A DNA stretch of 64,000 nt, from NCBI GenBank assembly GCA_029834535.1, contig JAQMWT010000328.1:62001-126000 (forward strand). The letters run 5' to 3'. Below the pieces are notes generated by a model. The model was not told where the DNA came from. It did no database searches and saw nothing but the letters and a program-made list of their open reading frames with translations. Shown in pieces: positions 596 to 18,217 of the stretch; position 1 is the first letter of the stretch; every line of letters starts with the position of its first letter. The position numbers and the translations under genes were made by a program. Source of the DNA: Chrysophaeum taylorii. Taxonomy: Eukaryota > Sar > Pelagophyceae > Pelagomonadales > Pelagomonadaceae.

Positions 596-596
596 A

Positions 597-900
597 CTTA
601 CTGGGGTTTGAGATTGGGACTAGGTGAACTTAGTGACCAGGTGAACTTACTGGGACCAAGTGAACTTACTGGGGTTTTTAGAGTAACGCAAAGGCTAGCG
701 GCGTGTACGGATCAAAGCAGCTTAGATTGGCGGAGGTGAGAGCGACGAGCTCGAAGGAGAGTGGGGTGAGTGGGTGTGAGCACGAGTGGGCTTACGCCGA
801 ACTTACTGGGGTTAGAGATTGGGACTAGGTGAACTTAACGGGGTGAACTTACTGGGGTTAGAGATTGGGACTAGGTGAACTTACTGGCCTGCACTTGTCC
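597..900. repeat. Irregular GGTGAACTTACTGGG short repeats
   Basis: At least six copies of a 15-base word, GGTGAACTTACTGGG or a one- or two-base variant, often followed by GTTAGAGATTGGGACTAG. They follow the helicase remnant directly and recur after copy 2 (about 1605-1742). They may be the decayed end of the transposon or a small local satellite. No gene is seen here. Confidence 0.75.
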
Positions 901-903
901 TAA

Positions 904-1012
904 CTACTAATCGACAGATGTTTGTCTGTCTGTTTGTCTGTTTGTCCCTCGATTTAGGGTAAGGATCAGGTAGGCGCGAGAGTAAGGATCAGGTAGGCGC
1001 GAGAGCCAGACA
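904..1012. repeat. TGTC-rich run and 23-bp tandem duplication
   Basis: A TGTC/TTTG-rich simple run (about 918-947) is followed by two consecutive copies of a roughly 23-bp unit beginning TAAGGATCAGGTAGG (about 958-1005). Together with the surrounding short repeats this marks a locally slippage-prone stretch. Nothing coding is seen. Confidence 0.7.
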
Positions 1013-1630
1013 GTGATCCTCCAAGCCGTCTACGGCGACCTCGCAGACTATTTCCACGACCCGCGGCGGCTCTTTCAGCGCGCCATTCTCACGCCCCGTC
1101 GAAACGATGTTGTCGATGCGGACAACGCGCGCATGACCGCGGCCTTTTTTTCCCGGAGACGAGGCGTCGGAGTTCTTTTCGGCTGACTAGGCTGGGTCGG
1201 AAGACGACGCCTCGCTCTTTACAGTAGAGTTTTCAACTCCCTGACAACCAACGGGATGCTGACTTTGAGCGCGAGCTTAAGGTCTTCGAAACCTCGACCC
1301 GTCGCACGGCCACTGCGACGGTACCAGATACATGATCGATCGTGTCGTTGTCACCGAGGCTCCTCCAACCTGTATCCCGTAAGGCCCGCCGACGCCAAAC
1401 GATCACCAAGAGCCAGGGCCAGACGCCCCGCGAGGTCGGCGTCCTCTTGGCGAAGCCCGTCTTCTGCCACGTCCAGCTCTACGTGGCTCTCTGTCGATCG
1501 GCAACCCCGAGGAGATGTACTCATCTGGGTCGACGACTCCACCCTACCCCACACGTGCTGCGCAATACCGATAAGCCCCCTCACGGCGTCTACACGCGCA
1601 CTGTAGGTGAACTTACTGGGACCAGGTGAA
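1013..1630 (+). pseudogene. PIF1/Helitron-type helicase remnant, copy 2
   Basis: Second, tandem copy of the helicase remnant at a constant offset of 1032 bp from copy 1, with scattered substitutions and small indels. Because copy 1 is cut by the window edge, copy 2 shows a few more upstream codons (VILQAVYGDLADYF). The same split-frame motif blocks are present: RAILTPR, and later PVFCHVQLYVALCR. The last codons differ from copy 1 where a short stretch after the QLYVALCR block has changed. Both copies carry the same inactivating stops, so the duplication probably happened after the gene had decayed. Confidence 0.6.
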
Positions 1631-1756
1631 CTTACTGGGGTTGGAGATTGGGACTAGGTGAGCTGAGTGACCAAGTGAAACTGGGACCAGACCAGGTGAA
1701 CTTACTAGGGTTAGAGATTGGGACTAGGTGAACTTACTGGCCTGCACTTGTTAGAC

Positions 1757-1849
1757 TTAAATCAAAAGTGGCAAAGTTAAGTGAACTAACCCTAGAACAG
1801 AGGGTACTAACCCTAGTTCAGATTTTCTACCTCTAGTAGGCTCTACGCC
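1757..1849 (-). repeat. Terminal-repeat-like block, left copy
   Basis: About 93 bp, beginning AAATCAAAAGTGGCAAAG on the plus strand, nearly identical to 15608-15705 in direct orientation. It lies just beyond the RNase H end of the element, where a 3' LTR is expected. The exact LTR ends are not clear: the sequence preceding the left copy (TGTTAGACTT) is not found at the right copy. Confidence 0.55.
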
Positions 1850-2016
1850 CTCACAGATTGAACGTGGGGAGCGAAATCTGGATCAAACTAAGCGGGAAGC
1901 GTCGTACCATCGACAAGAATGTAGAGAGTGTTCTGGACAGAGTCGTACGGTGGAAGAGTAGCCGAAAGAGCAACTTGATGTGATGAAGTGGAGTGAACGC
2001 CGTAGGCGTTTTTGAA

Positions 2017-2874
2017 CTAGTGAATTAAGTTGCGTTGAAGGAGCTTCGAAAAATGATCAGCGACCTGGTAGAGAGTAGGACACCAGAGAGGTCGAATGAT
2101 CGAATTAGCTTGGTAGTCGCGAATGCGAAATTCTCGTAAGTTGATATGACGAGAAGGAGCACTGACTTTAGGATGATTAGCGACATGTAGTGCGCTAGCG
2201 TTGTCAATAAGCAAGGGGATAGCGTGAGCTTGATCACACGAAAACAGATAGGGGTGGGAGGAGAAAAGCTTGTAGAACCAGTGACATTCATCAGCGGCTG
2301 CGCTGGCGGCGATGAGTTCAGCTTCCATGGTGCTCTTGGCAGTGAGAGTCTGACGTTTGCTAGACCAAAATACGAGATTGTCAAAGACGAATATACATGC
2401 ACCAGAATTGGATCGTAAGCGAGGGTCAGAACGATCAGCAAAGCTTGCATCAGTAAAACAGATAATAGGTGAACGAAGATGATGCAGTTCAGGATCGTGA
2501 GCGATCAGATGCTGAATAAAGGGGGTAATAGACGGGCTGTCGGATGAATAGTCAAGGGAGTCATTCGGAGTGCCATTTAAATAGCGAAGTAAAACATATA
2601 AGCGCAGAAGGTGTGTTTGGTCGGGGTTGTGCATCCCTTTGCAGCATTTGTTGCACACTGTGGTGATGTCCGGCCGACATGTGACAGACAAATAAATGCT
2701 GGTGCCACAATAGAAAGGGAAGTTTTGGCGTAATACATCTAAGGTAGTAGCCAAGTCTGAGAGAAGTTTAGTAGAAGGTTTTTTGACGAGGATGTCCGAA
2801 TAGGGGGCGTCTAGGCTATGTAGGTTGAGCTTATGCTCAGCAAGCATCTTTTTGATCTTCGCTGCTACATTCAT
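2017..2874 (-). CDS. Copia RNase H region (element A)
   Basis: C-terminal part of the Copia polyprotein, 285 codons from an ATG that is probably not a true start. RNase H degrades the RNA strand of the cDNA hybrid. The frame begins in the region joining RT to RNase H. Visible hallmarks in order: CRPDITT with the following chromodomain-like spacer, the first catalytic block TDASFAD, FWSSKRQ, the block TMEAELIAASAAADEC carrying the catalytic glutamate, the block LLIDNASA carrying an aspartate, and ADHFSKLL at the end. All expected acidic positions are present, so the domain itself looks intact. It overlaps the RT frame by 4 bp (ATGA) because a frameshift near 2985 splits the two; this is decay, not a translation signal, as far as can be seen. 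Confidence 0.88.
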   Translation of the reverse strand: MNVAAKIKKMLAEHKLNLHSLDAPYSDILVKKPSTKLLSDLATTLDVLRQNFPFYCGTSIYLSVTCRPDITTVCNKCCKGMHNPDQTHLLRLYVLLRYLNGTPNDSLDYSSDSPSITPFIQHLIAHDPELHHLRSPIICFTDASFADRSDPRLRSNSGACIFVFDNLVFWSSKRQTLTAKSTMEAELIAASAAADECHWFYKLFSSHPYLFSCDQAHAIPLLIDNASALHVANHPKVSAPSRHINLREFRIRDYQANSIIRPLWCPTLYQVADHFSKLLQRNLIH

Positions 2875-4124
2875 AGTGAGATGACCAGCGGAGACATTAT
2901 AGTGGACATCGATGCCAAGAAAGGACCGGATGTTGTCATGCCATGTACCCTTGCCATATTCGGTCTCCAGAGCGGTGCGAAGAGACGCAATTTGGCAGCG
3001 TTGGTACCAGTGATCAATAGGTCATCGACTGAAACGGATAGTAATACCCATTGGTTGATAGATCGATCCCAATTGATGTAAAGACAAGTATCGACTTGTG
3101 AGCGTTCGAACTCATGTTGTCGAAGAAATGAGTCGAGCTTAATATTCCACAAAAAAGCTGACTGTTCGAGGCCATAGAGAGCCTTGACGAGTCGGAGAGC
3201 GAGCTTCGACTCTGGATGGTTCTTCTGTATCTGCTGGATAAGATTTGGCGAGACACGTATTCCTCGAGGAAAGTCGATCCATACGGGGCGATCGAGTGCC
3301 GACTGGATGAATGCCTGAGGAATGTCCGCGTGCGCGACCGGGAGCTTGTGCTTCACAGCGATGGCGAGCAGTAACCGGTTGGTAGCGAGCATTGCGGTTG
3401 GTGAGGATGTGGCATACACGTCAATGCCTACACGTGCCAAGAAAGCTCGGGCGACTATACGAGCTTTATAGCGGTCTGGAGTGCCGTCAGCAAAATACTT
3501 GATCTTCAGCACGAGCTTCGTCGAGATAGACGAACGGTCTGGTGGTAAAGGCTCAAGCTTGAAGACACCATTGGAGCACAATCCTTCAATTTCCTTGCGA
3601 ATCGAAGCGATATGCTTTAACTTATCTTCTTCGCTGAGTCCTTTGAGTTCGACAATCTTTTCAGGCTCATAGACAATATCTTCAACGGTCACAAGTTGTA
3701 ACACAACATGATCGATGTGCTGCAAATCATAGTCCATGACTTCTCGTAGAATGTCTTGATTCGGATCACTTTGACTTAGGAAGAGGTGTCCGAGTTCGCC
3801 AGAATCATGCATGAAGGCATGCCTGTGACGAGAAGCTAGATGGTAGTGCTGATGCGCGGAGATGCCCCATAGAAGAGAGGAACCCATACAACAGAATTCT
3901 TGATTCCATTGACGCGCATAGTACTCTGCCGGTGACATTTCGTCATGGCACATGTAGTTCTCGAGAACAGAATTGTCGTTATCAAGGTGGTCAATCAACA
4001 CAGACGAGTGGCATGGCTTCCTGCGGAAGTCAACGTACAAGAGTTCCGCGTCGGTTTCTCTCTGCAAATCCAGTGCGGTCCGCCCATGATACCATAGTCT
4101 TGTGTGGTACTTGCTAGGAGACAT
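2871..4124 (-). CDS. Copia reverse transcriptase (element A)
   Basis: Reverse transcriptase part of the Copia polyprotein, 417 codons. It copies element RNA into cDNA. Residues 1-150 continue the linker after integrase. From about 180 the RT fold begins: a KLVLKIKY block, DRYKARIVARAF (218-228), the ADIPQAFIQ block (266-274) with the first catalytic aspartate, ALYGLEQSAFLW (315-326), and SVDDLL (365-370) corresponding to the catalytic Y-V-D-D box. After residue 378 the frame leaves the family pattern. In the neighbouring frame the expected SFLGIDV continuation appears, so a frameshift lies near 2985. A second frameshift near 4100 separates this frame from the upstream linker. The enzyme core is readable but the polyprotein is broken. 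Confidence 0.9.
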   Translation of the reverse strand: MSPSKYHTRLWYHGRTALDLQRETDAELLYVDFRRKPCHSSVLIDHLDNDNSVLENYMCHDEMSPAEYYARQWNQEFCCMGSSLLWGISAHQHYHLASRHRHAFMHDSGELGHLFLSQSDPNQDILREVMDYDLQHIDHVVLQLVTVEDIVYEPEKIVELKGLSEEDKLKHIASIRKEIEGLCSNGVFKLEPLPPDRSSISTKLVLKIKYFADGTPDRYKARIVARAFLARVGIDVYATSSPTAMLATNRLLLAIAVKHKLPVAHADIPQAFIQSALDRPVWIDFPRGIRVSPNLIQQIQKNHPESKLALRLVKALYGLEQSAFLWNIKLDSFLRQHEFERSQVDTCLYINWDRSINQWVLLSVSVDDLLITGTNAAKLRLFAPLWRPNMARVHGMTTSGPFLASMSTIMSPLVISL

Positions 4125-4894
4125 CCTTTCGGGACATCATGAGGCGGCTTAGCTTCTCTTCGAATGTTGAGAGCAGAGGCGATGCTGGCGGCGTGGCCCT
4201 GGTGCAGAGCGCTGACACTGATGAGGAACATCAATGTGCTGGACATGTTGGCTGTGGCGTGAGCCGTGGATTGCTCCTGCTGGTATTTCCAGTTGCGACC
4301 ATACTCTGAGGCGATAATGCGTCTGGTGAAGGGTTTTCCATCGTCAACACGTTTCACGATGTAGAGTTGATCCTTAGGAATGCGGAATCCACGTTCGTCA
4401 TTGAGATCTGCTTTGAGCTTATCGCTCTGGTTGCGATGCACGAGAACTGGAGTAAAACCTGAATCGTCGAGAACAACCTCTAGGCGATCTTTTCGTTTGG
4501 GTATCGGAATGCTACCATCCGGCGGAGGTGGCCGGTTGAGGAACGAAAAATCCTGTTCAGGTGTCGCGTCGCTGACGGGACTTGAATCAGCAGCGGGAGT
4601 TGGATCCAGTTCTTTGTGTTTGTCGTCATCGCTAGGTTGGTCATCGTGCTCGTCTTCGTGAGTCTCGCCCTCATTTTTTGATTCCTGTCTAATTTCCGGC
4701 ATTTGCTGTTCGCTTATAGCTGGTAGCGGGTCCTCTTGTCGTGCCTTTGGTGAGAACTGTGCAAGTGCTTTGATCCGTTCGATCTCCTTGTCTCGGTTGA
4801 CTGGCATGTCCGCGTCGACGTGAAAGTCGTTTTGAGATGACGATTTTTCCTTATCGCCCTTGATGTACAAGCAGGATAGAGCTGTGAACATCAC
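3995..4894 (-). CDS. Copia integrase-RT linker (element A)
   Basis: Polyprotein segment between integrase and reverse transcriptase, about 260 meaningful codons. It is acidic, rich in Asp, Glu, Pro and Lys, and looks disordered: runs such as DEHDDQPSDDDKHKE and a proline-rich block NRPPPPDGS. It holds no catalytic motif. Its 3' end overlaps the RT frame by about 130 bp in another frame, so a frameshift near 4100 interrupts the polyprotein. Upstream the frame stays open to about 4960, through a short TG...CA block that may be an LTR piece, so the natural junction with integrase is not preserved here. Confidence 0.7.
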   Translation of the reverse strand: MMFTALSCLYIKGDKEKSSSQNDFHVDADMPVNRDKEIERIKALAQFSPKARQEDPLPAISEQQMPEIRQESKNEGETHEDEHDDQPSDDDKHKELDPTPAADSSPVSDATPEQDFSFLNRPPPPDGSIPIPKRKDRLEVVLDDSGFTPVLVHRNQSDKLKADLNDERGFRIPKDQLYIVKRVDDGKPFTRRIIASEYGRNWKYQQEQSTAHATANMSSTLMFLISVSALHQGHAASIASALNIRREAKPPHDVPKGCLLASTTQDYGIMGGPHWICREKPTRNSCTLTSAGSHATRLC

Positions 4895-4933
4895 GGATAA
4901 ATCGGTCCGTTCCGGGGAGGTTCGGGAGATAGT

Positions 4934-5015
4934 TGTTACTATGAAAGTAAGACTCTAGGGTCCGAGGATGGATGACGTCATTCACAGTATCCCCTAACAC
5001 TCCCCCCAAACCTCC
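4934..5015 (-). repeat. Possible solo LTR end with polypurine tract
   Basis: On the minus strand a purine-rich tract, GGCGGAGGTTTGGGGGGAG, runs directly into TGTTAGGGGATACTG and, 66 bp later, the stretch ends in GTAACA. TGTTA at one end and TAACA at the other form the inverted dinucleotide-type ends typical of LTRs, and a polypurine tract normally lies immediately before a 3' LTR. No matching second copy was found in the window, so this is a suggestion only. Confidence 0.35.
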
Positions 5016-5034
5016 GCCTAAATCTAACAATATA

Positions 5035-5039
5035 TGCCG
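5035..5039. repeat. Target site duplication of element B, left
   Basis: TGCCG immediately before the 5' LTR of element B, matched by TGCCG at 9303-9307 immediately after the 3' LTR. Five base pairs is the usual Copia integrase duplication. It marks a real insertion into element A. Confidence 0.85.
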
Positions 5040-5135
5040 TGCGAAGAAGCTATGACACTTACCCCTGCACCACGTATCCAGTATCCTTACGTCTTTCTCT
5101 TATCGCTAGTCTAACGCCTCATACCATTCGTAACA
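5040..5135 (+). repeat. 5' LTR of element B
   Basis: Ninety-six base pairs starting TGCGAAGAAGC and ending CGTAACA. It differs from the 3' copy at only about one position (GAAGAAG against GAGGAAG), so the insertion is fairly young despite the decayed interior. The LTR is unusually short for Copia. Confidence 0.9.
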
Positions 5136-5152
5136 TGGTAAGCAGGTGCTCG
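5136..5152 (+). other. Putative primer-binding site of element B
   Basis: TGGTAAGCAGGTGCTCG directly follows the 5' LTR. Its first bases agree with the TGGTA(N)CAG pattern complementary to the 3' end of initiator methionine tRNA, the usual Copia primer. The match is partial. Confidence 0.5.
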
Positions 5153-5236
5153 TCGACGACGACCTGAGCTTGCTTCGTGGCGACTTCTTCTCGGCTTCAG
5201 TTCATTGCTACGTGTTCGGTTCGTTGTCGTCTATCA

Positions 5237-5960
5237 TGTCCTCGATCGAAATTCAAGCTAGCAGGCTTTCGCAAAAACTCGATGCTTTCAGTGGTGAGCG
5301 ACATCTTTTTCACCAATGGACCCGGCGCCTGGAAAACATGATCATTTCCACCGGTGATCACATTATCTCGACCAACGATCCTTGGACTAGCATCTCAGCA
5401 TCTCGCTGCTCTGAAGAAGACTTTCGCGTCAAGCAACAACGTTGATATCCATGAAAACCGCGACACGAACTTCAGCGAACAACATGAAAACCGCGACATG
5501 AACTTCACGCGACTTTACAAGCGCATTACCGATGTCTACATGGGCCGTGGGGATCGCGTAGCGAACTTCCTCAACAAGTTCATCATCGGAGTATACAAGT
5601 TGCTCAGCATTGTACCTATCACCGGCGTTCAAGTTGCTCGGCATCTTACCTATCACCGGAGTTCAAGTTGCTCGGCATTGTACCTGATCCGACGCACCCT
5701 CGAGTGTGTCCTCGCATTTGACTACGTGCATCGTGCTTCAAGCCTTACTGGCTTTGTTTTATCGTCTCGCGTTTCGTACCGATGAATGTGGTTGTACCCT
5801 TGAGAAGTTCAACAACAACCAATTTCGATGGCATGCACAACCACTTCCGCCGCGCTATCCGCCGCGTCGTCAGCCACCAGACTATTCCAAGCTGATGCAA
5901 GCACATGAACAACCCCATCCCACGGAAGCCCCTCGTTTTTGTTTTTAGCTCCTATTGCAC
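5237..5960 (+). pseudogene. Gag-like remnant of element B
   Basis: A frame starting at an ATG near 5237 reads MSSIEIQASRLSQKLDAFSG followed by a HLFHQWTRRLENMI block, the pattern of a Copia gag start (a short polar N-terminus, then a helix with a central tryptophan). It soon runs out of frame. Downstream, two short tandem duplications are embedded: a 30-bp unit with AACATGAAAACCGCGAC (about 5450-5510) and a roughly 33-bp unit with CAAGTTGCTC (about 5595-5685, three copies). No zinc knuckle was seen. Confidence 0.5.
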
Positions 5961-7580
5961 AGGCGCCTCGTTCTGTATTTTCCGCTATTCGTTGCTCCAC
6001 TCCCCGTTGTGCATTTTCAGCTATTCGTTGCTCCACTCCCCGTTGTGCATTTTCAGCTATTCGTCGATCCACTCCTCGTTGTGCTTGTCGGTTTCGGTAA
6101 TACCAGCGAATCACGTTCCATCGCGCATTTCACCTGCCACAACTAAGCCGTGCCTCTCAATTTTTCACGTGCGCAGTTTTCGTGCTTCCTATGTGGTTGG
6201 ATCGCTCATCTTCGGGATCCTGGACAGACGCTTCTTTGCTGTGTGATTTGTGGTTCTCCTTCACGCACTTTTTCGCCGCTTTTCTGACCTTTAAAATTCG
6301 GTTTTGCTATCGACGTGAATTCCGTGCTCAGCACCCGCGACGCTATCTGCAATGTTCTTACGTGCCACTGCGACGCTATCTGCAACGTTCTTACGTGCCA
6401 CAACTGTTTTGCCACTGTCGCCAACTTCTACCGCAGCCTATTCGAGTATGACGAGCGAAGCTCGCCGCTTGCTCCTCCAACGTTGGCCCATATGGCAATT
6501 TCGTTCTTGCGAATGCGAACACGGGCCACTTTCTTATCTGTCACAGCAGGCTGGCATACAGCAGCCTGGTCTACCTGTGTTCGTTCCTTACACCGCTGGC
6601 GCGTCCGAAGTCTTCCATCTTCGCGTACAGGACGCGGTCGTGCCCATGGGAACTAGCTCGCGCCACAACAACCAAACACCCACGTTCGCATCAAACCTGT
6701 TTACGCCTGTTTTTGCTTCTGTCGACTCCGACCATCGTCATAACCTGGTCACCATGCACCATGCAACCTATCTGCCCACAGGCCACGTTCTCATCAGACG
6801 TCTGGTATATCGCCATCATATGTACCAGCTTGTGTTCCCGCTATCTTTGCCCCGCTGCGATCCTCAGTGGCAACAATCGTCAAACGCACGTCATCCCAGG
6901 CACTTTTGTCGCTATTGTTCTTCAGACCTCGATTTTGCTGACAGTTTCACTTACCCGATTTCCTGCAATGTCAACCACCGAAGGAACTTCAACGTTGTTC
7001 TGACTTTCTCGAATCACGCTTCCAAGCTCTCGTCTATTGTTGCCCCATTGTCACCTGTTCCTGCTGTTGCCCCCTTGTTCGCTGTTGCCCCCTTGCCCCC
7101 TGTGTTTGATGAGAATGCGCCGGTTTCACTGGGACTGATCACCCCATCACGTGAACCGACCATTCTACGAGCTCGAGAGAAAACAACAGAAAGTGCAAAA
7201 GAGCAACAAAGAGAGAAAACAACAGAAAGTGCAAAACAAAGTCGTGCCAAACGGGGCCGACCGCGCAAAGTCGACCAACGCGCGTTACAACAACCAACAT
7301 TTTTTTTTTTTACGGGCCATTCTGTTTCATCCTGTCACAATGTTGATACGGGCCATTCTAATGTTGATACGGGCCATTCTGATGTCGATACGGGCCATTC
7401 TGTTTCCCCCTGTAACTCTTTGTATGTCTCTTCTGTTAGCTTTCGTTTGTTAGTTCATTAGGTCTTCCTTCCCCTTTGTTTAGCTAACACCCTTGTTGAT
7501 CCCCATGCATACGTTTATTACTCTGCTTCCGACGCTAAAGAATACAGCTCTCTTGGTCCGCTTGGTTGCTGGAATGTTAT
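5961..7580 (+). pseudogene. Undetermined internal part of element B
   Basis: Between gag and RT of element B. Fragmented open frames with several two- to four-fold tandem duplications: a roughly 36-bp unit near 5985-6090, a 30-bp unit near 6337-6402, a 30-bp unit near 7170-7240, and a GATACGGGCCATTCT unit near 7310-7400. The longest frame (6352-7461) carries an AT-hook-like core, KRGRPRK, near 7250. Protease and integrase motifs that should be here could not be recognised, so this part is either deleted or heavily decayed. Confidence 0.5.
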
Positions 7581-7593
7581 TCTCCTTCCTTCG

Positions 7594-8352
7594 ATGATGA
7601 TGATGTTTCTGGCAACATTTGTACCCTCAAGTGGATCCTCCGCAAGAAGTATGACTCTGGCCGCTTCAAATCGTACAAGGCTCGCCTCGTTGTCCGCGGT
7701 TACACGCAGGTTCACGGCATTGCTTTCCACGACACGTGCCGTCCTGCAGATGTCATCTCTGCTTTCATACAAGCCCCTGTCTGGCGTTGCTGTTCATGAC
7801 TGGGATTTACACAAGTTGGATGTCAGCTCCGCTTTTATCCAAGCTCTCATTGACGAAGACATCTATGTCTGGCCACACGAAGGTTATGCTCCTCGCCAAC
7901 CCACCGATGGTTTCAAAATCATTAACACGCTCCGTCGCTCTTGGTATGGTTACAAACAAGCTTGTCGCAATTTGTGGCTTTATTTGGCACGCTTTCTCGT
8001 CAATGACTGTGGCTTCGTCCGCGGATCTGGTGACACTTGCCATTACAAGCTCGTGCTCAATTCTACCGTCCTTCTAAGTCTCGTTCTGGTCGTTGATGAT
8101 CTTCTTGTGGCGCACCCTCGTCATTGCATTGGCCATTACCAAGCCTTTTTCCTCCGTTTCCGCGCTTTCACTGACGTCAATGAACTGATCTCACCTCTTA
8201 CGTTGGTCTTCGCATTACGCGTCATCGCCCTCGGAGAACCCTCACTCTTGACCAATCCCATGCTATCCGTGAAATCCTTACCGAACATCGCTTCATCAAC
8301 AGTAAACCCGAACTCACTCCCGCTCCCAAAGGTCTTCATCTTCTGCGGCTGA
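7594..8352 (+). pseudogene. Copia reverse transcriptase remnant (element B)
   Basis: Reverse transcriptase of element B, partly in frame over 252 codons. Just upstream, in another frame, lies the conserved lead-in KYDSGRFKSYKARLVVRGYT (near 7650-7710). In this frame follow DWDLHKLDVSSAFIQAL with the first catalytic aspartate, EDIYVWPHEGY, the SWYGYKQACRNLW block, and VVDDLLVAHP with the paired catalytic aspartates. A short internal repetition of the DVxSAFIQA block (7750-7790 and 7820-7850) adds an out-of-place segment. A stop at 8350 and frameshifts on either side prevent a functional polyprotein. Confidence 0.85.
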
Positions 8353-8386
8353 CTGTCCTACTCCTGGTTCTCCAGATCACATTTTC

Positions 8387-9115
8387 ATGGCACGCATCCC
8401 TTTTCGCCGTATTGTTGGCTGTGTCCTCTTCATCTCCATCATGACTCGCCCTGATATCACTTGGTCCGTCAATCAGTGTGCGCGTTTTTCCCACAATCCT
8501 GGTAAACCCCACTGGCACGCTTGGCACGCTTTATCTCCCACTCTGCGTTATCTCAATGGCTCTCACGATCTTGCCCTTGTTCTTGGTCGCGATTCTACCC
8601 TTCGTCTCTGTGGTTATTCCGATTCCAGCTGGGCCGACGACCCTGATGACCGCCACTCCACAACTGTTTCTTTGTTTTCTCTGCTGGCTCTATGATCGCC
8701 TACTGCCCCCGCTCGCAGTACTTACTTGCTCGCTCTTCTTTTGTTGCTGGCTCTATGATCGCCTACTGCTCCCGCTCGCAGTACTTACTTGCTCCCTCTT
8801 CTTTTGTTGCTGGCTCTATGATCGCCTACTGCTCCCGCTCGCGGTACTTACTTGCTCGCTCTTCTTTTGAAGCTGAATTGCTCGCTCTTTACGCCGCTAC
8901 TGCTGAGCTCTCTTGGTTTCTCAAACTTTTGTGATGACTTTGATCTCCCTCGTCACACCGTCCCAATGTATGTTGATAATAGCACCACCGTCACCCAAGT
9001 CCGTCTCCAATGTCTCACACGGCGCACCCGCCATATTGACATTCGCTTTTACAGCACCGCCGAATATCATCGCAACCAGATCATTGATCTCAAGCACATA
9101 CCCCGCGAGGATCTC
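8387..9115 (+). pseudogene. Copia RNase H remnant with 63-bp triplication
   Basis: RNase H of element B. Visible blocks: MTRPDITWSVNQCARF, RYLNGSHD, YSDSSWADDPDDRHST with the first catalytic aspartate, SSFEAELLALYAA with the catalytic glutamate, YVDNSTTVTQ with the next aspartate, and RHIDIRFY. Between the first aspartate and the glutamate, a 63-bp unit (21 residues, GSMIAYCSRSQYLLARSS plus three) is repeated three times at about 8670-8870. Only the last copy leads into SSFEAE; the first two read SSFVAG. Frameshifts separate the blocks. The triplication would insert about 42 residues into the RNase H fold. Confidence 0.85.
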
Positions 9116-9206
9116 ACTTACCCCTTTTTCCTTTTCTTTCTTTTTCCAGCACCTGTGTGAGGACCTCACTTACCCCTTTTTCCTTTTCTTTCTTTTCCAG
9201 CACCTG

Positions 9207-9302
9207 TGCGAGGAAGCTATGACACTTACCCCTGCACCACGTATCCAGTATCCTTACGTCTTTCTCTTATCGCTAGTCTAACGCCTCATACCATTCGTAA
9301 CA
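9207..9302 (+). repeat. 3' LTR of element B
   Basis: Ninety-six base pairs, TGCGAGGAAGC to CGTAACA, matching the 5' LTR. It is preceded by two tandem copies of a roughly 52-bp block (about 9105-9206) that is pyrimidine-rich (CCTTTTCTTTC) instead of holding the purine-rich tract expected before a 3' LTR. Confidence 0.9.
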
Positions 9303-9379
9303 TGCCGCGTTTGGCTAAATTGACGTTCAGCCTACAATGCTGTAAAATCCCAAATGTAGGTTTCTCGGACAATTATTAG

Positions 9380-9634
9380 GGGGTCGGATAAGAAAACGAG
9401 ACTAGCCCGCGCCGCAACGACGGTCCTACAACGCGTGGGCTTTTTCCCTTTTTTGCGTGAGGGGACGAAAGGATGCCGACTTCACTATGGGGACTAGTTC
9501 CATCGCGACGATCTCGCGGCGTGGCGGCACATACTGCTTGAGTACAAATGAACATAGCTCAGCGATCCGTTGAGTATGTCTTAGTACAAACTGAAACATA
9601 GTTAACGGCTCGTACGAACTTTCTTATCCGACCC
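9380..9634. mobile_element. MITE-like 255-bp inverted-repeat element
   Basis: Perfect 15-bp terminal inverted repeats: GGGTCGGATAAGAAA at 9381-9395 and its complement at 9620-9634, with possible 3-bp TAG duplications (9377-9379 and 9635-9637). There is no coding capacity. It sits exactly where the integrase-containing frame of element A stops: the last base of the repeat forms part of that frame's TAG stop. This looks like a small non-autonomous DNA transposon that truncated the polyprotein. The family is not identified. Confidence 0.6.
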
Positions 9635-12600
9635 TAGTAAGAGGCAGAGACGCTGGAGGGTTCCAGTTTGTGACTATGAGGGTAGACAAAAGTGACAGGT
9701 TCGCCAAAGGGGAGAAGCTTCAAGAGCGGTGCCGTGGGCGACATGATACGCCGGGGAACGGTGCATGGCATGTGTGTGCGCGAGGGCAGGCCATGGGAGC
9801 GCTGGTTGTCGGCTTGGATCTTATGCAGGAAAGCAAATGGGTGATAATACGCAGCGGCAATAGACTTTCCTTCGATGCGTACACTGCGAAGGTTGAGGAG
9901 ACGAACCACGGTGCCTCGAGTGTTTTCTTTAATAATATTTTCAGCAAAGTTCCGCTGCTGGAGGTGGCGACCAAGGATTTGGAATTGGAGACCAAGATGC
10001 ACCTTGAGAGGGTGGAAGGCTTCAGAACGAAAAGTCGAGAATGCGTCAGAGGATCTAATCTTGACATGGACATCGAATTCGACCTTGATTACATTGGCCA
10101 CATAGAGGATGCCGGCCAGAACATCTTGTGCGTCTAATTTCCGTAGGAAATAGACCCATTTGTGTGCTGAGATGATACACACGAAGTGCATGATATAGTG
10201 AAATCCGCCGTAGCACTTGTTGATGCTCGGGTATGACACATCCATGTGGAGGTGTTGGCCAGGAGCATAGGCCAATTCATCCTGTGACCAGGAAGTGTTT
10301 TTGTGACTGAAGCTTACGTGCGATTGGCAGCGCTTGCATTCACTGCAGTCTTGCAAATACCGATCATCACCTGGGCGGAGATTCGTTACGTTAGCGGCAA
10401 TCGTGCGGCGAAGAATCTCTGGTTGCTGGTGGTGTATGCGGTGCCAGCGAGTGACCAAAAGCACTCTTTTGGCGTGCTGAGTGGTGCCGGGCTGGTGCAA
10501 GGGAGGCAGAGCGGCAGTCGAAGCGCTGGGGGGGCTGGGTCGCTTGTCGACACGGATTTCAGCAGCGGTTGCCTCGGCAAGAAGCGTCTCGAGGTTTGTC
10601 GATTTGCTTGGTTTGCGGATCGCATCATGGTGAGCATCTGCAACGGCATTGAAGAGGGAGGTGAGGTTCAGGTCTTCCTCTGCTAAGAGACGGCTGGAGA
10701 TGGCTGAGAAGAATTCTGCAACCTGATGGATGTCTCCAGGGCTGGGGATGCCATTGCGTATTGTAGCCCATTCGACGTGAAGGTTCACGTGGTGGTGCGA
10801 TTCGTGGAATGCGAGGACAGCGCTGTACTTTGCCTGCAACATGTGGTGCGTGACGGCGTTGGCCAGTGCCTTGAACGCGAAGTACGGCGGGTGCTGTTTG
10901 AATAGTTGGAGCAGCTCCGGGTCTGAGTGGTGTCCAAACTTTGCGATTTCGTCGAGGGTCGCATAGCGGATTTGGTCTGGAGAGATCAGCAGCAAGGCAT
11001 TGGAGTAGCTCGTGTTGGTTGGGTACGAGCCAGTGACCGAGTAGCACTTGCTGCTCTTCTGAAGCGTGTCTCCGATGTGGCCGACATAGTCCGCGTAAGT
11101 GGGACGTGCTTTGGACATTACGAGTCCCTTGGGGTCATCGAGAGCAATTCGCCCTTGTGAGTCGATCGCGGCAAAGCCAGGATGCGAACGATTCATATAG
11201 TGGACCCAAGTGGACGGGCGCGAACAGCTGTGAGCGGCGGCCAAGGAGGTGGTGTAAGCGACGACCAGAAAGGCAGTGCCCTTGGGAATATCCAAGGAAG
11301 AGGAGTGCGTTGGGGAGAAGACTGCGGGTTGAAGGGAACAGTCCAAGATCTTAGGAGGCCTGGAATGGAGGGTGAGGGAGGCGCGCGGGAAGTGGCCATA
11401 TGCGACGGCAGTAGCGGCGGTGCCGGTGATGGTTCCATTCAAATGGTAAGCACATTGAGACTCTGAGGCATGAAAACAGCGTATGGTGTTCCAAGCGGCG
11501 AGAGTGGGGTGTTGCGACAAATGGTTGTGCAGGAGCGTAAAAACCAGTAGGTTGGAAATGGACGCCATTGTGGCGTAGGGGGTGCCGTCGGCATCTAGAC
11601 CGAGATCCGTGAAGGGCTTGGTGAGACGTGCGAGCATTTGGCAGATGCGGGCATTCTCGGAAGTCGAGAGTTTCGAGGCGTTGGTGGGCTTGTAGGAGTA
11701 GGTGGCCTTGTGCTGGTAGTAGTCCAATGTGGAACGGGGCACTGTACCACGAAGGGCGGGTTTGGCCATCCAGAAATCGTCAGGGATGGTGTGACTGGGT
11801 TCCAGGAGAGGAAGCATGCTCGGAGGCGAGGTTAACCAAGTAGAGGCGGTTTTCTCGAGGTTGTAGCAGGTGAGCGGGTGCCGGGCGTACACAGCGAGAT
11901 AGCGAGTCTTGCTGATGACATCACCAAAAGCAGAGGCATTGTAGACGCCGGAGTGGCGGAAGTAGCCTAAACGCTGATAACCTTTGGCGAGTTGAGTATA
12001 CTCGTGGTGAGTGCGGGGGTTGGGAGGTACGTTCTCGACAATGGCATAGGTCGGGAGCGTGCAACGAACGAAGCGGATTTGTTCTTTCACGAAAAGGTCG
12101 GCGGTGACCGGAGTGGCATAACCGTTGTAGTCTTTCATTACACTCAGATGTTGGCAGGGCAATGTAAAAACTGCCAGGTCGAATGTAGGGAGTCGTATTT
12201 TGCCGGTTTGGAGTGCGGCATTGAGTTTTCTGAGGTCCGCATAGTGCTGGGCGTGCGGGAAGAGGTGTTTCGCACGGGTACGCAGGATATCGTTGATTTC
12301 GCAGGTGACCACGACAGTTAGGCGTTTGTCGAATCGTTTGCGAATAGTGTCGAAACCTTCCTGGAAGGCGTAGTGGACGACAGGAGATTGGATGTTGAGC
12401 AGTTCGGTACGATACCGTGAGTGGGTTTGTAGCTTCGCGAAGTCAAGCGTGTGCGATTTTGAGCGTGTCTTTGCGACATGCTTTGTGATGTGTGCAATCT
12501 CATCTTTGATGGACATTCGTTTTCTTGTGTGAAAGCTGACCACAGTGGCGAATGTTTGGTTGGGGTGAGATGGCAGGGACAACAGGCCGTTAGGCTTGCG

Positions 12601-12978
12601 AGTGGCAAGTACGACGGCGGTCTTTCCTAGAAGTGTTGCATAATTGTGGGGGTCTGAGGTTGAGGAATTTAGGAGCTCATAAAGGTAGGGCTCGTGGGGC
12701 AATGGCGGGTCTGTAGCTTGTACATGCAGAGCTTTGAGCTGAGATGTTGCTATAACTTGAAGACCTTGTCTGGATTGCGGGACTAACATAAACACGAGAT
12801 ATAAAACGTAACCTGTTGTGTCTTCCGTATCCATTGAAGAGAGACCTGCAGCCTGCAGATACAACGGTTTAACACCGATGAAGTGACTGGTATGAGTTCC
12901 TCGGCCCATATGAATGGTGTGTTCGGGAATTCGGCGTTGGTCTCGGGGACAAAATTTTGAATTGTGCGCGTAAGGCAA
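9634..12978 (-). CDS. Copia pol with C5-cytosine methyltransferase and integrase
   Basis: Uninterrupted frame of about 1114 codons; the first codon is TTG, so it is a continuation of gag-pol and not a free gene. Residues 1-100 are the tail of a Copia protease. Residues about 196-720 read as a C5-cytosine DNA methyltransferase: a degenerate AdoMet loop (HYAFQEGFD), VTCEIND, the catalytic TLPCQ (Cys275), IVENVPP (313-319), the motif-VIII-like SKTRYLAVYAR (356-366) and, after a long target-recognition-like region, RYATLDEIAKFG and ALANAVTHHML (704-714). Residues 841-1030 are an integrase: zinc ligands including CSECKRC, then Asp913, Asp978 and Glu1013, a D,D-35-E spacing. The frame ends where a 255-bp element is inserted. 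Methylation by LTR-element-borne enzymes is known in a few algae; activity here is unproven. Confidence 0.85.
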   Translation of the reverse strand: MPYAHNSKFCPRDQRRIPEHTIHMGRGTHTSHFIGVKPLYLQAAGLSSMDTEDTTGYVLYLVFMLVPQSRQGLQVIATSQLKALHVQATDPPLPHEPYLYELLNSSTSDPHNYATLLGKTAVVLATRKPNGLLSLPSHPNQTFATVVSFHTRKRMSIKDEIAHITKHVAKTRSKSHTLDFAKLQTHSRYRTELLNIQSPVVHYAFQEGFDTIRKRFDKRLTVVVTCEINDILRTRAKHLFPHAQHYADLRKLNAALQTGKIRLPTFDLAVFTLPCQHLSVMKDYNGYATPVTADLFVKEQIRFVRCTLPTYAIVENVPPNPRTHHEYTQLAKGYQRLGYFRHSGVYNASAFGDVISKTRYLAVYARHPLTCYNLEKTASTWLTSPPSMLPLLEPSHTIPDDFWMAKPALRGTVPRSTLDYYQHKATYSYKPTNASKLSTSENARICQMLARLTKPFTDLGLDADGTPYATMASISNLLVFTLLHNHLSQHPTLAAWNTIRCFHASESQCAYHLNGTITGTAATAVAYGHFPRASLTLHSRPPKILDCSLQPAVFSPTHSSSLDIPKGTAFLVVAYTTSLAAAHSCSRPSTWVHYMNRSHPGFAAIDSQGRIALDDPKGLVMSKARPTYADYVGHIGDTLQKSSKCYSVTGSYPTNTSYSNALLLISPDQIRYATLDEIAKFGHHSDPELLQLFKQHPPYFAFKALANAVTHHMLQAKYSAVLAFHESHHHVNLHVEWATIRNGIPSPGDIHQVAEFFSAISSRLLAEEDLNLTSLFNAVADAHHDAIRKPSKSTNLETLLAEATAAEIRVDKRPSPPSASTAALPPLHQPGTTQHAKRVLLVTRWHRIHHQQPEILRRTIAANVTNLRPGDDRYLQDCSECKRCQSHVSFSHKNTSWSQDELAYAPGQHLHMDVSYPSINKCYGGFHYIMHFVCIISAHKWVYFLRKLDAQDVLAGILYVANVIKVEFDVHVKIRSSDAFSTFRSEAFHPLKVHLGLQFQILGRHLQQRNFAENIIKENTRGTVVRLLNLRSVRIEGKSIAAAYYHPFAFLHKIQADNQRSHGLPSRTHMPCTVPRRIMSPTAPLLKLLPFGEPVTFVYPHSHKLEPSSVSASY

Positions 12979-13001
12979 AAGGATGCGCCACCGTCAATCA
13001 A
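12783..13001 (-). pseudogene. Copia aspartic protease remnant (element A)
   Basis: Short frame starting MIDGGASFCLTRTIQNFVP. The D-G-G-A-S core followed by a hydrophobic-polar stretch is the active-site region of a Copia retropepsin, which cuts the Gag-Pol polyprotein. The rest of the protease (MGRGTHTSHFIGVKPLYLQ) is found in the neighbouring frame, so a frameshift near 12915 splits the domain. Upstream the frame should connect to gag. Confidence 0.7.
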
Positions 13002-13080
13002 TGAGGTTTCAGTGCCGGGGCCATTGCATCCGTGCAGTGAGCTAGTCTTCTATGAGGTCTTGTCTGGAGTGTAAGCTGCA

Positions 13081-13284
13081 CTAAGAAAATCGGCGACTCT
13101 GGGTGAGATAGTTGATGAAGTCGGGAAATTCGTCATCTGGAGGTTTGGTGCCTGATGAAGTAAGGTGTGGTTGGCGGCACAGGCGTCGTCGGCAACCATC
13201 AGCGAAAAAGCCGACTCTGGTGGAGAGCACGCATGTAGTCACTGTGGCGTTTAGCGTAGTCTTCGGCGGCGTCATCTTCATCAT
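13081..13284 (-). other. Short frame between gag and protease (element A)
   Basis: A 67-codon frame overlapping the gag stop by 4 bp. It carries cysteine and histidine residues (CVLST, CRRRLCRQPH) that could be remains of a nucleocapsid zinc region, but no C-C-H-C knuckle spacing is visible. Most likely the out-of-frame continuation of gag toward the protease. Confidence 0.35.
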
Positions 13285-15404
13285 TGGTTTCGGGAATGGC
13301 GTCGTCGTATAGGGCTCTGCTGACCGTTGTCGTCATAAAAGCCGAGATGTCCTTTGTCGTCTTGTTCATCGGTTTCGGCTTCGCCCTCATCAGATTGATC
13401 GTCTTGGGAATCGGACGTTAACATCTGGAGGAATTCGGCGGCGTCATTTTCGGCTTCGGAAAGAAGTATCTCGTCGGAAATGGTGGTTATGAGGTTGATT
13501 AGCTTGTTCATATGCTCGGAGCTGGACGTATGTTGGCGACCGGCTTGGCTAAATTTCCGTATGGTTTGGAGCTTACGACGGACTTCACGAAGGGGGACCT
13601 TGAAGCGTTGGTCTGGAGTAGATGGTTTGGGTGGATGAGGTTGTGTGGGGAAGGTGACCTTGCGAAGATGCGGGTGCTCGTGTTTGTCAGGGGTGACAGG
13701 AGGAGCTCGGGGACAGTGCTTGTTCTTCGGTGGGGTGACAGGGGCGGCCTTAGGCTTAGGACTGTCATTGACGTCGTAGTAAGACGGGGAGCGAGGATTA
13801 GGAGGCTTTTTGCCTGGAGGGGGCTTTTTGACGTGCCGCGAAATTTGCTTCTTGCGGTAGGCGTGTAGTTGGCGAATAAGATCATTGTCTTCTTCTTGAT
13901 CAAGATTGGCCTCCGTGAGAAAAACGGCGACGAGGTCGGTGTCTTCAATGGGGTCCGGAGGGGTGTCGTCTTCAGAGGGAGAGGTGTCATCATCGTCTTC
14001 GGTGAGATGGAGACCATGACGGCGGGAGCGAAAGCGGGGGTTGTCTTTGTCTTTTGTGGGCAGACGACCAAAGTCCGCGACGAAGCGCAAAGGCTTGAAA
14101 TTAAGAGTGGGGTGAGGCTTGAGGTGAGCCCAAAAGTTGCGCTCAAGCGTTGAGATGACGGTGATGCGAGCGATGAGCTTAGGAAGGTGGTGGATGGCGT
14201 CCTTGTCTTCGTCGAGTAACAGCGAATCGTTGGGAGTGCGCAGACAGTTAGCAAGACGTGCAAAGCCCTTTATGTGTGTTGGGGCGCGGGAGTCAAGCAA
14301 GCTTGGGGGGTACTTGAAGCGAAGAATTTGGTGAATTTCTTCGAGTATCTTGTGGTCTGGGAGTTGGAGAGAAGTGTCCGTGGTGACCTGGCGGAGTTGC
14401 TGCACGACATGACGCATGTAGTCGATGTAGTGAGCTGGCTCATGGATTTCGGGGTTGAACGGCGTGTCCAGAAAGGCATTGTAAACATAATGCGCATGGT
14501 GGATGTGGTTCTGGCCCGTATGCTTATCGAGAGCGAGGCGAACTTGAAGCACGAATTCGAGTCCTATCGGGTAGGAGGATCCAAGTGCATCGATTTCGTC
14601 GTATGCTGGGTGCTTGACGGAGTCGCTACCGGCATGTAGGAAACGACGAAAGAGGGGGTGTACAGTCTCGCGGAGATATACGATGAAGTCGGCTTCTTTT
14701 CCTTGGAGATGTGGTTGAGTTATTGGATGTAACTTGCCTTTTGTCATATCGGTTGGGTCCTTGTATTGATCTCTTAGTTCTTGGAGTTTTGGCTCGTAGA
14801 CGTTGTCCAGGAAGTGCTTGCCGAACTTGCGGTAGACACCCTTGTAGTAGACGTAACGGCCTTGGAAATCTTGCGTGTTCCCGGCGGTAGAGTGGTTGTC
14901 GGGGTCCTTGTCGTATTCGTCGATACAGCAGTGGCTTAGGAGAGCGTCAGCGAGATCGTTAGATCCGCGCAGGACGGATTCCCACGTGTAGAAGCCCTGT
15001 AGGAAGTACTGAGTTATACCTGTTTCAGGCATCAGATGTTCGACGAACAATTGCATGACACGAAACGAGAGCATTTGGGGTGTGACTTGCGACGAGTCCA
15101 TGGACTTGAGAACGGCACTTGGTGGGTCACTAAAGGTGTTGATCTTAGACTTGGGATCTTGTTGAGCCGGAGTGGGAGGCGGAGCCGCAGCAGTCACGGC
15201 AGATGGTGGTGCTTGCGTTGCTTGTACTTGGGCGGACAAAGCGCTTATTATGCGAGCCATCAAGCGAGTTTCTTGGTCTTGCATTTCTTGTTTATGCCGA
15301 GCTTCGGACGCTTGAGCTTGTTGTTGCATGTCTCTTTGGTACTTGGCTTCTAAACGAGCTTCTTGCTCTCTTATCTCCTTCTGGAGTTCTTGGTTCGTCG
15401 GCAT
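13281..15404 (-). CDS. Gag-like polyprotein of element A
   Basis: Frame of about 707 codons from the ATG at 15404 (MPTNQELQKEI); it is open for 27 more codons upstream but without another ATG. The first 60 residues are a charged coiled coil (EIREQEARLEAKY...). The middle is folded-looking, with many aromatic residues (YFLQGFYTWESVLRG, FIVYLRETVHPLFRRF, HYIDYMRHVVQQL). The C-terminal third is acidic and proline/lysine-rich. Position between the terminal repeat and the protease, size and composition fit a structural Gag protein that forms the particle holding the element RNA. No zinc knuckle is seen. It is larger than usual for Copia gag. The call is based mainly on position. Confidence 0.65.
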   Translation of the reverse strand: MPTNQELQKEIREQEARLEAKYQRDMQQQAQASEARHKQEMQDQETRLMARIISALSAQVQATQAPPSAVTAAAPPPTPAQQDPKSKINTFSDPPSAVLKSMDSSQVTPQMLSFRVMQLFVEHLMPETGITQYFLQGFYTWESVLRGSNDLADALLSHCCIDEYDKDPDNHSTAGNTQDFQGRYVYYKGVYRKFGKHFLDNVYEPKLQELRDQYKDPTDMTKGKLHPITQPHLQGKEADFIVYLRETVHPLFRRFLHAGSDSVKHPAYDEIDALGSSYPIGLEFVLQVRLALDKHTGQNHIHHAHYVYNAFLDTPFNPEIHEPAHYIDYMRHVVQQLRQVTTDTSLQLPDHKILEEIHQILRFKYPPSLLDSRAPTHIKGFARLANCLRTPNDSLLLDEDKDAIHHLPKLIARITVISTLERNFWAHLKPHPTLNFKPLRFVADFGRLPTKDKDNPRFRSRRHGLHLTEDDDDTSPSEDDTPPDPIEDTDLVAVFLTEANLDQEEDNDLIRQLHAYRKKQISRHVKKPPPGKKPPNPRSPSYYDVNDSPKPKAAPVTPPKNKHCPRAPPVTPDKHEHPHLRKVTFPTQPHPPKPSTPDQRFKVPLREVRRKLQTIRKFSQAGRQHTSSSEHMNKLINLITTISDEILLSEAENDAAEFLQMLTSDSQDDQSDEGEAETDEQDDKGHLGFYDDNGQQSPIRRRHSRNQ

Positions 15405-15607
15405 TTTGCTTGGGTTCAGGAACGTCAGTGAGCTTGACTTGTCTGGAAATCCTGGGGCTCTGCTGATACCGGGACTGGTGCCCAATACCTAGAGAACAGT
15501 AATCACAACTGTGTTACCCTTCAGCAGAGCGTGAGAACAGTGGTAGTCTGTCCTCGAATCTGTCTCTTAATCTTGCACAGGCGGTGTGAATAACACAGCG
15601 TTTTCTT

Positions 15608-15705
15608 TTAAATCAAAGGTGCCAAAGTTAAGTGAACTAACCCTAGAACAGGGGGTACTAACCCTAGTTCAGATTTTCTCCCTGTAGTAGTAGTAGGCTG
15701 TAGCC
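15608..15705 (-). repeat. Terminal-repeat-like block, right copy
   Basis: Direct repeat of 1757-1849 with a few substitutions and two added TAG triplets (GTAGTAGTAGTAGG against CTAGTAGG). It lies upstream of gag, where a 5' LTR is expected on the minus strand. About 200 bp separate it from the gag ATG; a GGTATCAGCAGAGCC stretch on the minus strand near 15460 resembles a tRNA-iMet primer-binding site but is far from the repeat. Confidence 0.55.
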
Positions 15706-16891: not shown

Positions 16892-18217
16892 CTACTTCAG
16901 GTCAGTCGGGTTTTTTGCGATTTTGGTATCGACGAGGCGGGCGATGTCGCGGGCGATGTCGGTGGTGGCGTCGGGCTTGGCCGCCTCGAGGGCTCGCGCA
17001 GCCATCGAGTGGCGCGTAGCGTCGTCTTCGAGGAGGCGACGGATCTCTCGGGCGATCTTCTTCGGGCGTCGCTTGAAAACGCCAAATTCGTGCGTCTTGA
17101 CGACGAACTTGACGTTCCCCGCTTCCTGGCCGGGGAGGAACGACGATAAGACCACCGGGAGACCGCGGGTCGCCGCTTCGGCGATAGTTCCGGGTCCCGC
17201 CTTGGTGACGACGCAGTCGGCCGCGGCCATGTACTCCTCTATGTTGGAGACGAAGCCTAAAATGGAGGGGCGGACGTGGTCCGGCCAATCGTAGGTCTCG
17301 AGCTCGCGCTTGGCCGCCTCGTTTTTGCCGCATATCACCACCAGCGACGCCTCGTCCCGAAGTTCGGAGGCAATCGTCTTGGCTACTCTCGCGATCCTAC
17401 CGACGCCATCGCCACCGCCCATCACCAACACCGACGGTACGTCCGGAAGGCCTAGGTGCTGGCGTACCTCGGGCTGCGTGCGGTGCTCCTGCTCCCAAAA
17501 GGGAGCGCGGAGCGGGAGCCCGCGCGACACGAGCTTGTCCGTCGGAAGCCCGCACCTTCTCGCTTTGTCGTAGATCGCTTTCGACGGCACGAAGCACTTG
17601 TCGACGCCGCGGTGGAACCAGGTCGGGTGTGCCGAGGCGAGGTCCGTCACCACCGTCACAAATGGCACGCCCCTCTTGAGCTTCCTCAGCGCGCGGAGCG
17701 GTATTGTCTGACAGAGCGGATGCACCGACACCACTACGTCTAAGTCCTCGATTCTCTCCTCTAAGACCTGTTTAAAACGTTTGAAGCAGGACAAGGCCGC
17801 CGCTTTTTCCTGGGCAAATCGCGTCAACGGAAAGTTCCCGTAGATCCACAGCATTCGCCACAGCATCGGCTTTTTGGCCAAAAACGAGTAGAACGGGACA
17901 AAATTCGAGTACGGCCACGCGGCGTGCTCCGTCCATATGTCCAGTATCTCGCACTCCCACCGCTCGGGGAACAGCTTTTCGAGCGCGTGCGCGATCGCCT
18001 CGGCCGACGCCCGGTGACCCCCTCCCGTATCGCTCATCAACAGCAAAATGCGCTGCTTCTCTGGGCTCGCGGGTTGTCCATTCGCGAGCGGCCGCCACTC
18101 GGTCAACGCCCTGTCCTGCTGGACCGCCCCGAGACCCACCTTCACCCGCGGCTGCTGCACCACGGCGAACCCGAGGGCCCCCGCCACCATCAACCCGTCA
18201 CACCACCACCGCCGCAT
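16892..18217 (-). CDS. MGD1: Monogalactosyldiacylglycerol synthase
   Basis: Transfers galactose from UDP-galactose to diacylglycerol, making MGDG, the main lipid of plastid membranes; it acts at the plastid envelope. 441 residues from an ATG. Family signatures in order: LLMSDTGGGHRASAEAI (59-75) for the lipid-binding N-domain, HPLCQTIPL (166-174), VMGGGDG (265-271), GFVSNIEEYMAAAD (321-334), KAGPGTIAEA (339-348) and LPGQEAGN (361-368), the last three forming the UDP-sugar site of this GT28 family. The N-terminus has a hydrophobic signal peptide ending ALG-FAVV, where the phenylalanine at the predicted cleavage point fits heterokont plastid targeting. Length is normal once a targeting sequence is counted. 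The decayed region to the left and the pseudogene to the right isolate it. Confidence 0.93.
   Translation of the reverse strand: MRRWWCDGLMVAGALGFAVVQQPRVKVGLGAVQQDRALTEWRPLANGQPASPEKQRILLLMSDTGGGHRASAEAIAHALEKLFPERWECEILDIWTEHAAWPYSNFVPFYSFLAKKPMLWRMLWIYGNFPLTRFAQEKAAALSCFKRFKQVLEERIEDLDVVVSVHPLCQTIPLRALRKLKRGVPFVTVVTDLASAHPTWFHRGVDKCFVPSKAIYDKARRCGLPTDKLVSRGLPLRAPFWEQEHRTQPEVRQHLGLPDVPSVLVMGGGDGVGRIARVAKTIASELRDEASLVVICGKNEAAKRELETYDWPDHVRPSILGFVSNIEEYMAAADCVVTKAGPGTIAEAATRGLPVVLSSFLPGQEAGNVKFVVKTHEFGVFKRRPKKIAREIRRLLEDDATRHSMAARALEAAKPDATTDIARDIARLVDTKIAKNPTDLK

Follow-up and report, generated by a model that had tools for sequence, protein, structure and literature searches.

The locus described here raises the question of what a C5-cytosine DNA methyltransferase is doing inside the polyprotein of a Copia-type retrotransposon. 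It lies in a 64,000-nucleotide stretch of the Chrysophaeum taylorii genome (contig JAQMWT010000328.1, positions 62,001–126,000), hereafter the window, whose minus strand holds a 1114-codon open reading frame (ORF; 9634–12978) that runs from the tail of a protease (PR) through a methyltransferase (MT) to an integrase (IN). An earlier reading of the letters alone (the sequence-only reading) had proposed a Copia polyprotein with an MT between PR and IN, which is borne out by the domain order and by an RVT_2-type reverse transcriptase (RT). The best overall explanation of our data, to which we assign a probability of about 0.5, is a Copia element of the order PR-MT-IN-RT-RNase H whose MT was gained early, has been kept by selection, and would act on the element's complementary DNA (cDNA).

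The methyltransferase and the element that carries it

A Pfam-A scan of the 1114-codon frame returned a single match, PF00145 (DNA_methylase, residues 243–369, E 2.9e-8), scoring 34 bits against a cut-off of 22, and the predicted C5-MT identity thus survived its profile check. Alignment of the window copy with nine others from the same genome, three of them partial, showed that motifs I–IV, VI, VIII, IX and X line up across the family, including the TLPCQ, VENVPP, SKTRY and ALANAV segments picked out beforehand. When 23 copies were read piecewise, the window included, the Glu of motif II, the Pro, Cys and Gln of motif IV, the Glu and Asn of motif VI and the Arg of motif VIII were unchanged in all 23, as had been expected for PCQ and ENV. 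The glycines of motif I (AGGL, an unusual form) are kept in all 22 copies other than the window.

Structure prediction from the copies alone was unusable (mean pLDDT 28.7), and a single weak C5-MT (E 0.086) came out of a profile search against PDB sequences. A predicted model of the MT from another copy than that of the window matches the fold of M.HhaI and DNMT1; the first matches of the fold search are DNA enzymes, with human DNMT2 also among the 50 listed, and the matches of the family model are DNA methyltransferases. By profile, motifs and predicted fold, the MT of the window family is a C5-cytosine methyltransferase. Its motif IV is PCQ, while PCN is motif IV of DNMT3. The suggestion of a separate capture gains from this difference and from the element class (as against DIRS and Gypsy), and draws on these two points rather than on a tree with DNMT3 references. 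The features of the element are as follows.

1757–15690, minus strand: entire MT-bearing Copia copy, including a nested element; 83-bp terminal repeats at both ends, 5′ boundary common to other copies
15608–15690, minus strand: 5′ long terminal repeat (LTR), very short (~83 bp), 94% identical to 1757–1839
13281–15485, minus strand: gag ORF, 734 aa, upstream of pol also in most other copies
12549–13025, minus strand: protease region (approximate), active site LIDGGAS near 13000–13025, in a frame other than the MT–IN frame
10735–12400, minus strand: C5-cytosine methyltransferase domain (approximate limits), assigned by PF00145 (E 2.9e-8) and alignment; motif I deleted here
12151–12165, minus strand: MT motif IV, TLPCQ (catalytic Cys), from the copy alignment
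12028–12036, minus strand: MT motif VI, ENV (catalytic Glu), from the copy alignment
11899–11913, minus strand: MT motif VIII, SKTRY, from the copy alignment
10852–10869, minus strand: MT motif X, ALANAV, from the copy alignment
9715–10467, minus strand: integrase, HHCC finger and D-64-D-34-E core (approximate limits)
5039–9304, plus strand: second, nested Copia element, 4.27 kb; repeats 5039–5137 and 9206–9304 (99 bp, 99% identical)
2985–3569, minus strand: Copia reverse transcriptase, RVT_2 (Pfam E 1.4e-32), SVDD motif
2070–2460, minus strand: Copia-type RNase H (approximate limits), by in-frame reading of FTDAS, STMEAELIA, LIDNASA and ADHFSK, which we take to be Copia RNase H motifs
1757–1839, minus strand: 3′ LTR, terminal repeat partner of 15608–15690

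The RVT_2-type RT, the placement of IN before RT and the LTR pair, unusually short as it is, all identify the element as Copia. Matches to the 5′ LTR region start within 14 bp of one common point in 12 of 18 loci (L011–L028), and no obvious 5-bp target-site duplication was seen in the flanking sequence inspected. Pfam-A assigned no family to the gag ORF. For the integrase, the triad and the HHCC finger are present as proposed, but the spacing is D-64-D-34-E and not D,D-35-E. Only the tail of the protease lies in the 1114-codon frame, again as proposed; the active site LIDGGAS is just upstream in another frame. The anticipated very long target-recognition region was also found, with ~349 residues between motifs VIII and X.

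In the window MT, 25 residues including motif I (AIIAGGLH) are absent relative to the nine other aligned copies. Motif I is the S-adenosylmethionine-binding motif, and because it is deleted, the window copy should encode no active methyltransferase; judged from its sequence, this copy is a dead member of its family. The nested Copia element sits in the linker between IN and RT, carries RVT_2 (E 2.6e-10 within 7594–8349) and ATGCC at both its ends, and Pfam scans of two of its ORFs found no MT.

Beside the element, 16892–18217 on the minus strand is an MGDG synthase-like ORF (PF06925, E 2.5e-26), and window positions 1–1756 contain satellite-like repeats (GGTGAACTTACTGGGG...) and a 680-bp duplication (95.8%).

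Copies in the host genome and relatives elsewhere

Searching the 70.8 Mb of the C. taylorii genome (697 contigs) with the catalytic half of the MT gave at least 152 matches (150 scored of 427 candidates). Sixteen of the 150 have another match within 1.5 kb, and such neighbours are probably fragments of a single copy. Among the first 70, 67 cover at least 175 of 186 residues, 56 of these without a stop. A PF00145 scan (474 candidates, 123 scored) listed 57 places, 55 of which overlap MT matches of the element and two do not, so that the MT region is no chance match. Reading 20 of the 57 identified 18 as the MT element, one as a small DNMT2-like gene, so called from a signature that we take to be that of DNMT2, and one as a gene with DNA_methylase and SNF2, as in DNMT5. 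DNMT2-like and DNMT5-like genes are thus the only host PF00145 places listed outside the element, a list that may be incomplete because intron-split genes match exon by exon.

For 53 of 69 RT matches (the best 68 of 149, plus a lower-ranking one), the same strand has a listed MT match no more than 12 kb upstream. Of the 150 RVT_2 places scored among 1670 candidates, none has a listed PF00145 place within 10 kb, and four have a listed MT match at that distance or less; one of the four (C58) is the MT element itself. The proposed search for intact copies yielded a 1952-codon frame through PR, MT, IN and RT (L024) and an 1868-codon frame through PR, MT, IN and most of RT (L036). Judged by sequence, no copy, these two included, is claimed here as intact; L024, for example, retains a strong RVT_2 match (E 1.6e-38) but has a changed RT motif.

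All five copies inspected have pol in the -1 frame relative to gag (derived by hand), and their gag stop overlaps an ATG as TGATG (TGATGG), which suggests that pol may be expressed by stop-restart or by a -1 frameshift. The overlaps lie at 3597–3633 in L024, 3571–3607 in L025, 6028–6064 in L026, 5888–5924 in L017 and 3630–3705 in L020. The protease D[G/S]G is readable in 21 of 23 copies, the window included. Protease active sites usually have the form D[ST]G; of the 21 copies that can be read here, 20 have DGG and one, L022, has DSG. At first sight the MT domains of L042 and L043 seemed to have been exchanged (MT 61–66% identical, other parts mostly 75–100%); the difference was traced to compensated frameshifts, and exchange was rejected. 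Two contig pairs, C25/C521 and C10/C297, match at nearly equal coordinates and are probably two haplotypes. A chlorophyll-binding protein family has 84 matches in the genome, on contigs C88, C539, C390 and others, with adjacent copies equal in score; for one of them the PDB matches include fucoxanthin-type antennas. The genome also encodes a rubisco large subunit whose best PDB matches are red-type chains, and a search for phycobilisome proteins found no match. By these genes the host is a photosynthetic eukaryote, probably an ochrophyte- or haptophyte-like alga.

RT matches in the genome range from 100% down to 56% identity, followed by six at 40–44%. Two of these six, L040 and L041, represent a sister family whose RT is ~43% identical to that of the window family. 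L040 has an MT homologue between PR and IN (BLASTP E 1e-21 over 353 columns, including the PR tail), and its MT part alone aligns with an hhalign probability of 94.3 (E 1.1e-7); Pfam called no MT in L040 or in the L041 frame scanned. Around residues 600–750 of the L040 ORF lies a ~125-codon stretch that occurs at ~50 places (73–96% identical); it contains no recognised Copia domain and may be a short dispersed repeat.

Against 5.8 billion proteins, MT queries (window residues 1–720, or the copy alignment) gave nothing at E ≤ 0.001 among the ~8000 candidates scored for each. An IN-RT query was the only type to reach relatives, with 225 proteins, of which 120 were listed. PF00145 and RVT_2 occur together in two of these 120, P0003 and P0012 (E 5.2e-10 and 2.1e-11), and motif reading placed an MT in P0002 and P0008–P0011, where P0008 begins within the MT and so lacks PR and motif I. 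In all, P0001 and seven environmental polyproteins have the MT before IN with the same motif order and like spacing (I–IV 68–74 residues, IV–VI 41–44, VI–VIII 41–52). The stretch between motifs VIII and X, so long in the window, spans 311 residues in P0002, 331 in P0003 and 165–188 in P0012 and P0008–P0011. One relative was found in IMG/VR (IMGVR_UViG_2894445195), while IMG/VR scans with RT, P0004, P0003 and P0010 found none. A plasmid scan found nothing, and a phage scan one DNA methyltransferase at 25% identity, in two records.

An RT tree of 52 sequences (15 of the MT group and every third of P0013–P0121; the nested window element was omitted as too short) grouped 11 MT-bearing sequences with P0004–P0007, set apart from all others by a branch of length 1.12 (support 100/100). 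The other 37 are Copia sequences, and plants and a fungus are among their named sources. In a 13-sequence MT tree, too small to place the origin of the MT, eight of nine Copia MTs group with support 97/97. On this evidence the window element is one of a large family within a wider Copia clade, and not one odd element. Since related elements of one branch repeatedly show this arrangement, the MT looks like an old, useful part of them rather than an accident. A single early gain of the MT in a distinct Copia clade, with later change, is the simplest reading of both trees, though it is not proved.

Selection, base composition and possible roles

Median pairwise dN/dS was taken over pairs that share 60 codons or more and have dS > 0.05; broken copies are included, and the pairs are not independent. 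Values were 0.134 for PR (226 pairs), 0.154 for IN (171) and 0.168 for RT (136). Within the MT they were 0.159 for the core (253), 0.185 for the target-recognition region (250) and 0.216 for the motif X part (128), with 0.217 for the linker (151). By these ratios, the MT is under purifying selection about as strong as that on PR, IN and RT.

The steps envisaged by our preferred explanation are the following. The MT would be made as part of Pol, and for that reason would probably be packaged with RT and IN in the particle, where it could act on double-stranded cDNA or its ends before or during integration. New copies would then enter the genome already methylated. DNMT5 is a maintenance-type enzyme, and the DNMT5-like enzyme, the only chromatin-type DNMT found in the host, could copy the marks on at each replication. 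The element could benefit through protection of its cDNA, or from early silencing, which would make it less costly to its host. Taken by itself, methylation of the element's cDNA by the MT falls, in our estimate, slightly short of an even chance.

A number of observations weigh against this explanation. Sixteen of the 69 RT matches have no listed MT match upstream on the same strand. P0004, which falls inside the RT group, has no MT in a 1362-aa ORF that starts just before IN, and P0005–P0007, with nearly the same RT, list only RVT_2; in these four the MT may have been lost or may lie on another ORF. On the MT tree, P0012 sits apart from the group on a long branch, which may reflect replacement or the long branch itself. 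The motifs also vary: L040 and L041 have ECT for motif IV and EM for motif VI; EM recurs in P0002, P0003 and P0008–P0011, and P0012 has ETV, in place of the ENV of the window family. Catalysis may for this reason be altered outside that family, and motif I is unusual even within it. Base composition is equivocal. The observed/expected ratio of CpG is 0.99–1.06 in 10 copies, against 1.12 in the nested Copia without an MT and 1.27 in window positions 16000–64000. C/T differences per site on the two strands (uncorrected for codon position) are 0.152/0.113 at CG, 0.126/0.146 at CT, 0.112/0.071 at CC and 0.076/0.062 at CA, so that CG has the highest value on one strand and the second highest on the other. 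This pattern weakly fits some methylation, by host or element, and the statistics appear to lack the signature of strong self-methylation. We set aside CpG depletion as evidence that the element methylates itself, as it hardly exceeds that of the non-MT Copia and the C/T excess at CG is modest.

The motif changes outside the window family bear most directly on the view of the MT as a relic, with little or no catalytic activity, that serves a structural role, such as nucleic-acid binding within Pol. EM or ETV in motif VI, ECT in one family and the atypical motif I would suit it, as would L042 and L043, whose frames stay open through the MT by compensated frameshifts. Against it stand the constancy of the motif IV, VI and VIII residues in all 23 copies, the catalytic Cys and Glu kept in all nine Copia MTs aligned, and a catalytic half whose dN/dS resembles the values for IN and RT; we consider a relic improbable. 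The position of the MT immediately before IN, in an order conserved in P0001 and the seven environmental polyproteins, instead invites the idea of a targeting module that, together with IN, recognises or places methylation where insertion occurs; the element would thereby land in silent chromatin or create it. One satellite-like repeat is found at the 3′ flank of the window copy, on the 5′ side of L017 and L021, and also in L014. Insertion may not be random, since this repeat is common to the flanks of several copies, and it is possibly a preferred site or possibly the trace of a rearrangement. At L017 and L021 the element's own end is absent at the junction, which makes rearrangement as likely as targeted insertion; short repeats can gather elements passively, and PR may cleave MT from IN. 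A targeting role thus seems to us unlikely.

The substrate could also be RNA, for example genomic RNA or a tRNA primer, methylated as DNMT2 does. The enzyme would share the particle with RNA, but the first fold matches and the family-model matches are DNA enzymes, even though human DNMT2 is among the 50 fold matches, and what we take to be the DNMT2 signature is unseen in the alignment of Copia MTs. C5-MTs of the same fold, DNMT2 and DNMT6, can use RNA, as the accessible text of one paper states (PMC12344493). An RNA role remains quite improbable in our estimate, and any role other than one on cDNA, target site or RNA, or in structure, very improbable. That the arrangement is an artefact, whether a chance frame, an assembly join or a host gene inserted in one Copia copy, might be argued from the modest Pfam score (34 bits) of a copy that alone is broken. 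It is refuted by the genomic copies (at least 152 MT matches, and an MT within 12 kb upstream for 53 of 69 RT matches) and by the independent environmental polyproteins, and we give it next to no probability.

Comparison with known systems

An MT arrangement that marks an old Copia group, turns up again in environmental sequences and is maintained by selection in its host makes both cDNA marking and a role in integration testable. If an element itself lays down the mark by which it is silenced, the usual arms-race view would be inverted. With DNMT2-like and DNMT5-like genes the only others found in this host, the case also bears on the source of de novo methylation in algae without DNMT1 or DNMT3. 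In a stronger version, which we hold to be distinctly unlikely, the MT has been a clade-wide fixture of Pol, next to IN, since before the families drifted down to ~40% RT identity, the element MT is the sole de novo candidate, and 5-methylcytosine here was founded by retrotransposons and is maintained by DNMT5.

DNMTs in LINE, DIRS and Gypsy elements are known; what the present case would add is the anatomy of a Copia C5-MT and the clade that it marks. Our literature search, which covered few subscription papers, found in the accessible texts no Copia C5-MT anatomy, no non-DNMT3-like motif set in Copia and no MT-marked Copia clade. A DNMT in Copia is nevertheless not wholly unnamed in print, because one sentence of a 2025 paper (PMC12344493) places DNMT3 members in 'LTR Copia and DIRS'. 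That sentence cites de Mendoza et al. 2018 (PMC5890265), which in its accessible parts reports Gypsy; a C5-MT in LTR Copia is what our element shares with it, and the accessible text gives no anatomy. The 2018 paper also describes Symbiodinium LTR Copia elements without any DNMT domain, and cites Iyer et al. 2011, among two studies, for a DNMT linked to reverse transcriptase, again as far as its accessible text goes.

Compared with M.HhaI/Dcm-type and DNMT1-type C5-MTs, the Copia MT has the same predicted catalytic-core fold and motifs I–X, but differs in its long VIII–X stretch, its unusual motif I and its fusion within Pol. Among retroelements, and from the accessible parts of PMC5890265, the element resembles SymbioDIRS-Dnmt3 and SymbioLINE-Dnmt in being an algal retroelement with a C5-MT, many copies and selection on the MT; those belong to the DIRS and LINE classes with other integration enzymes, and the SymbioDIRS MT methylates CG in yeast. 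It is also like KnitGypsy-Dnmt3 of Klebsormidium nitens (same source), an LTR retrotransposon with a C5-MT inside Pol and purifying selection on it (MT Ka/Ks < 0.2). KnitGypsy-Dnmt3 is a charophyte Gypsy element with a DNMT3-type enzyme, whereas the element of the window is a Copia with PCQ in motif IV.

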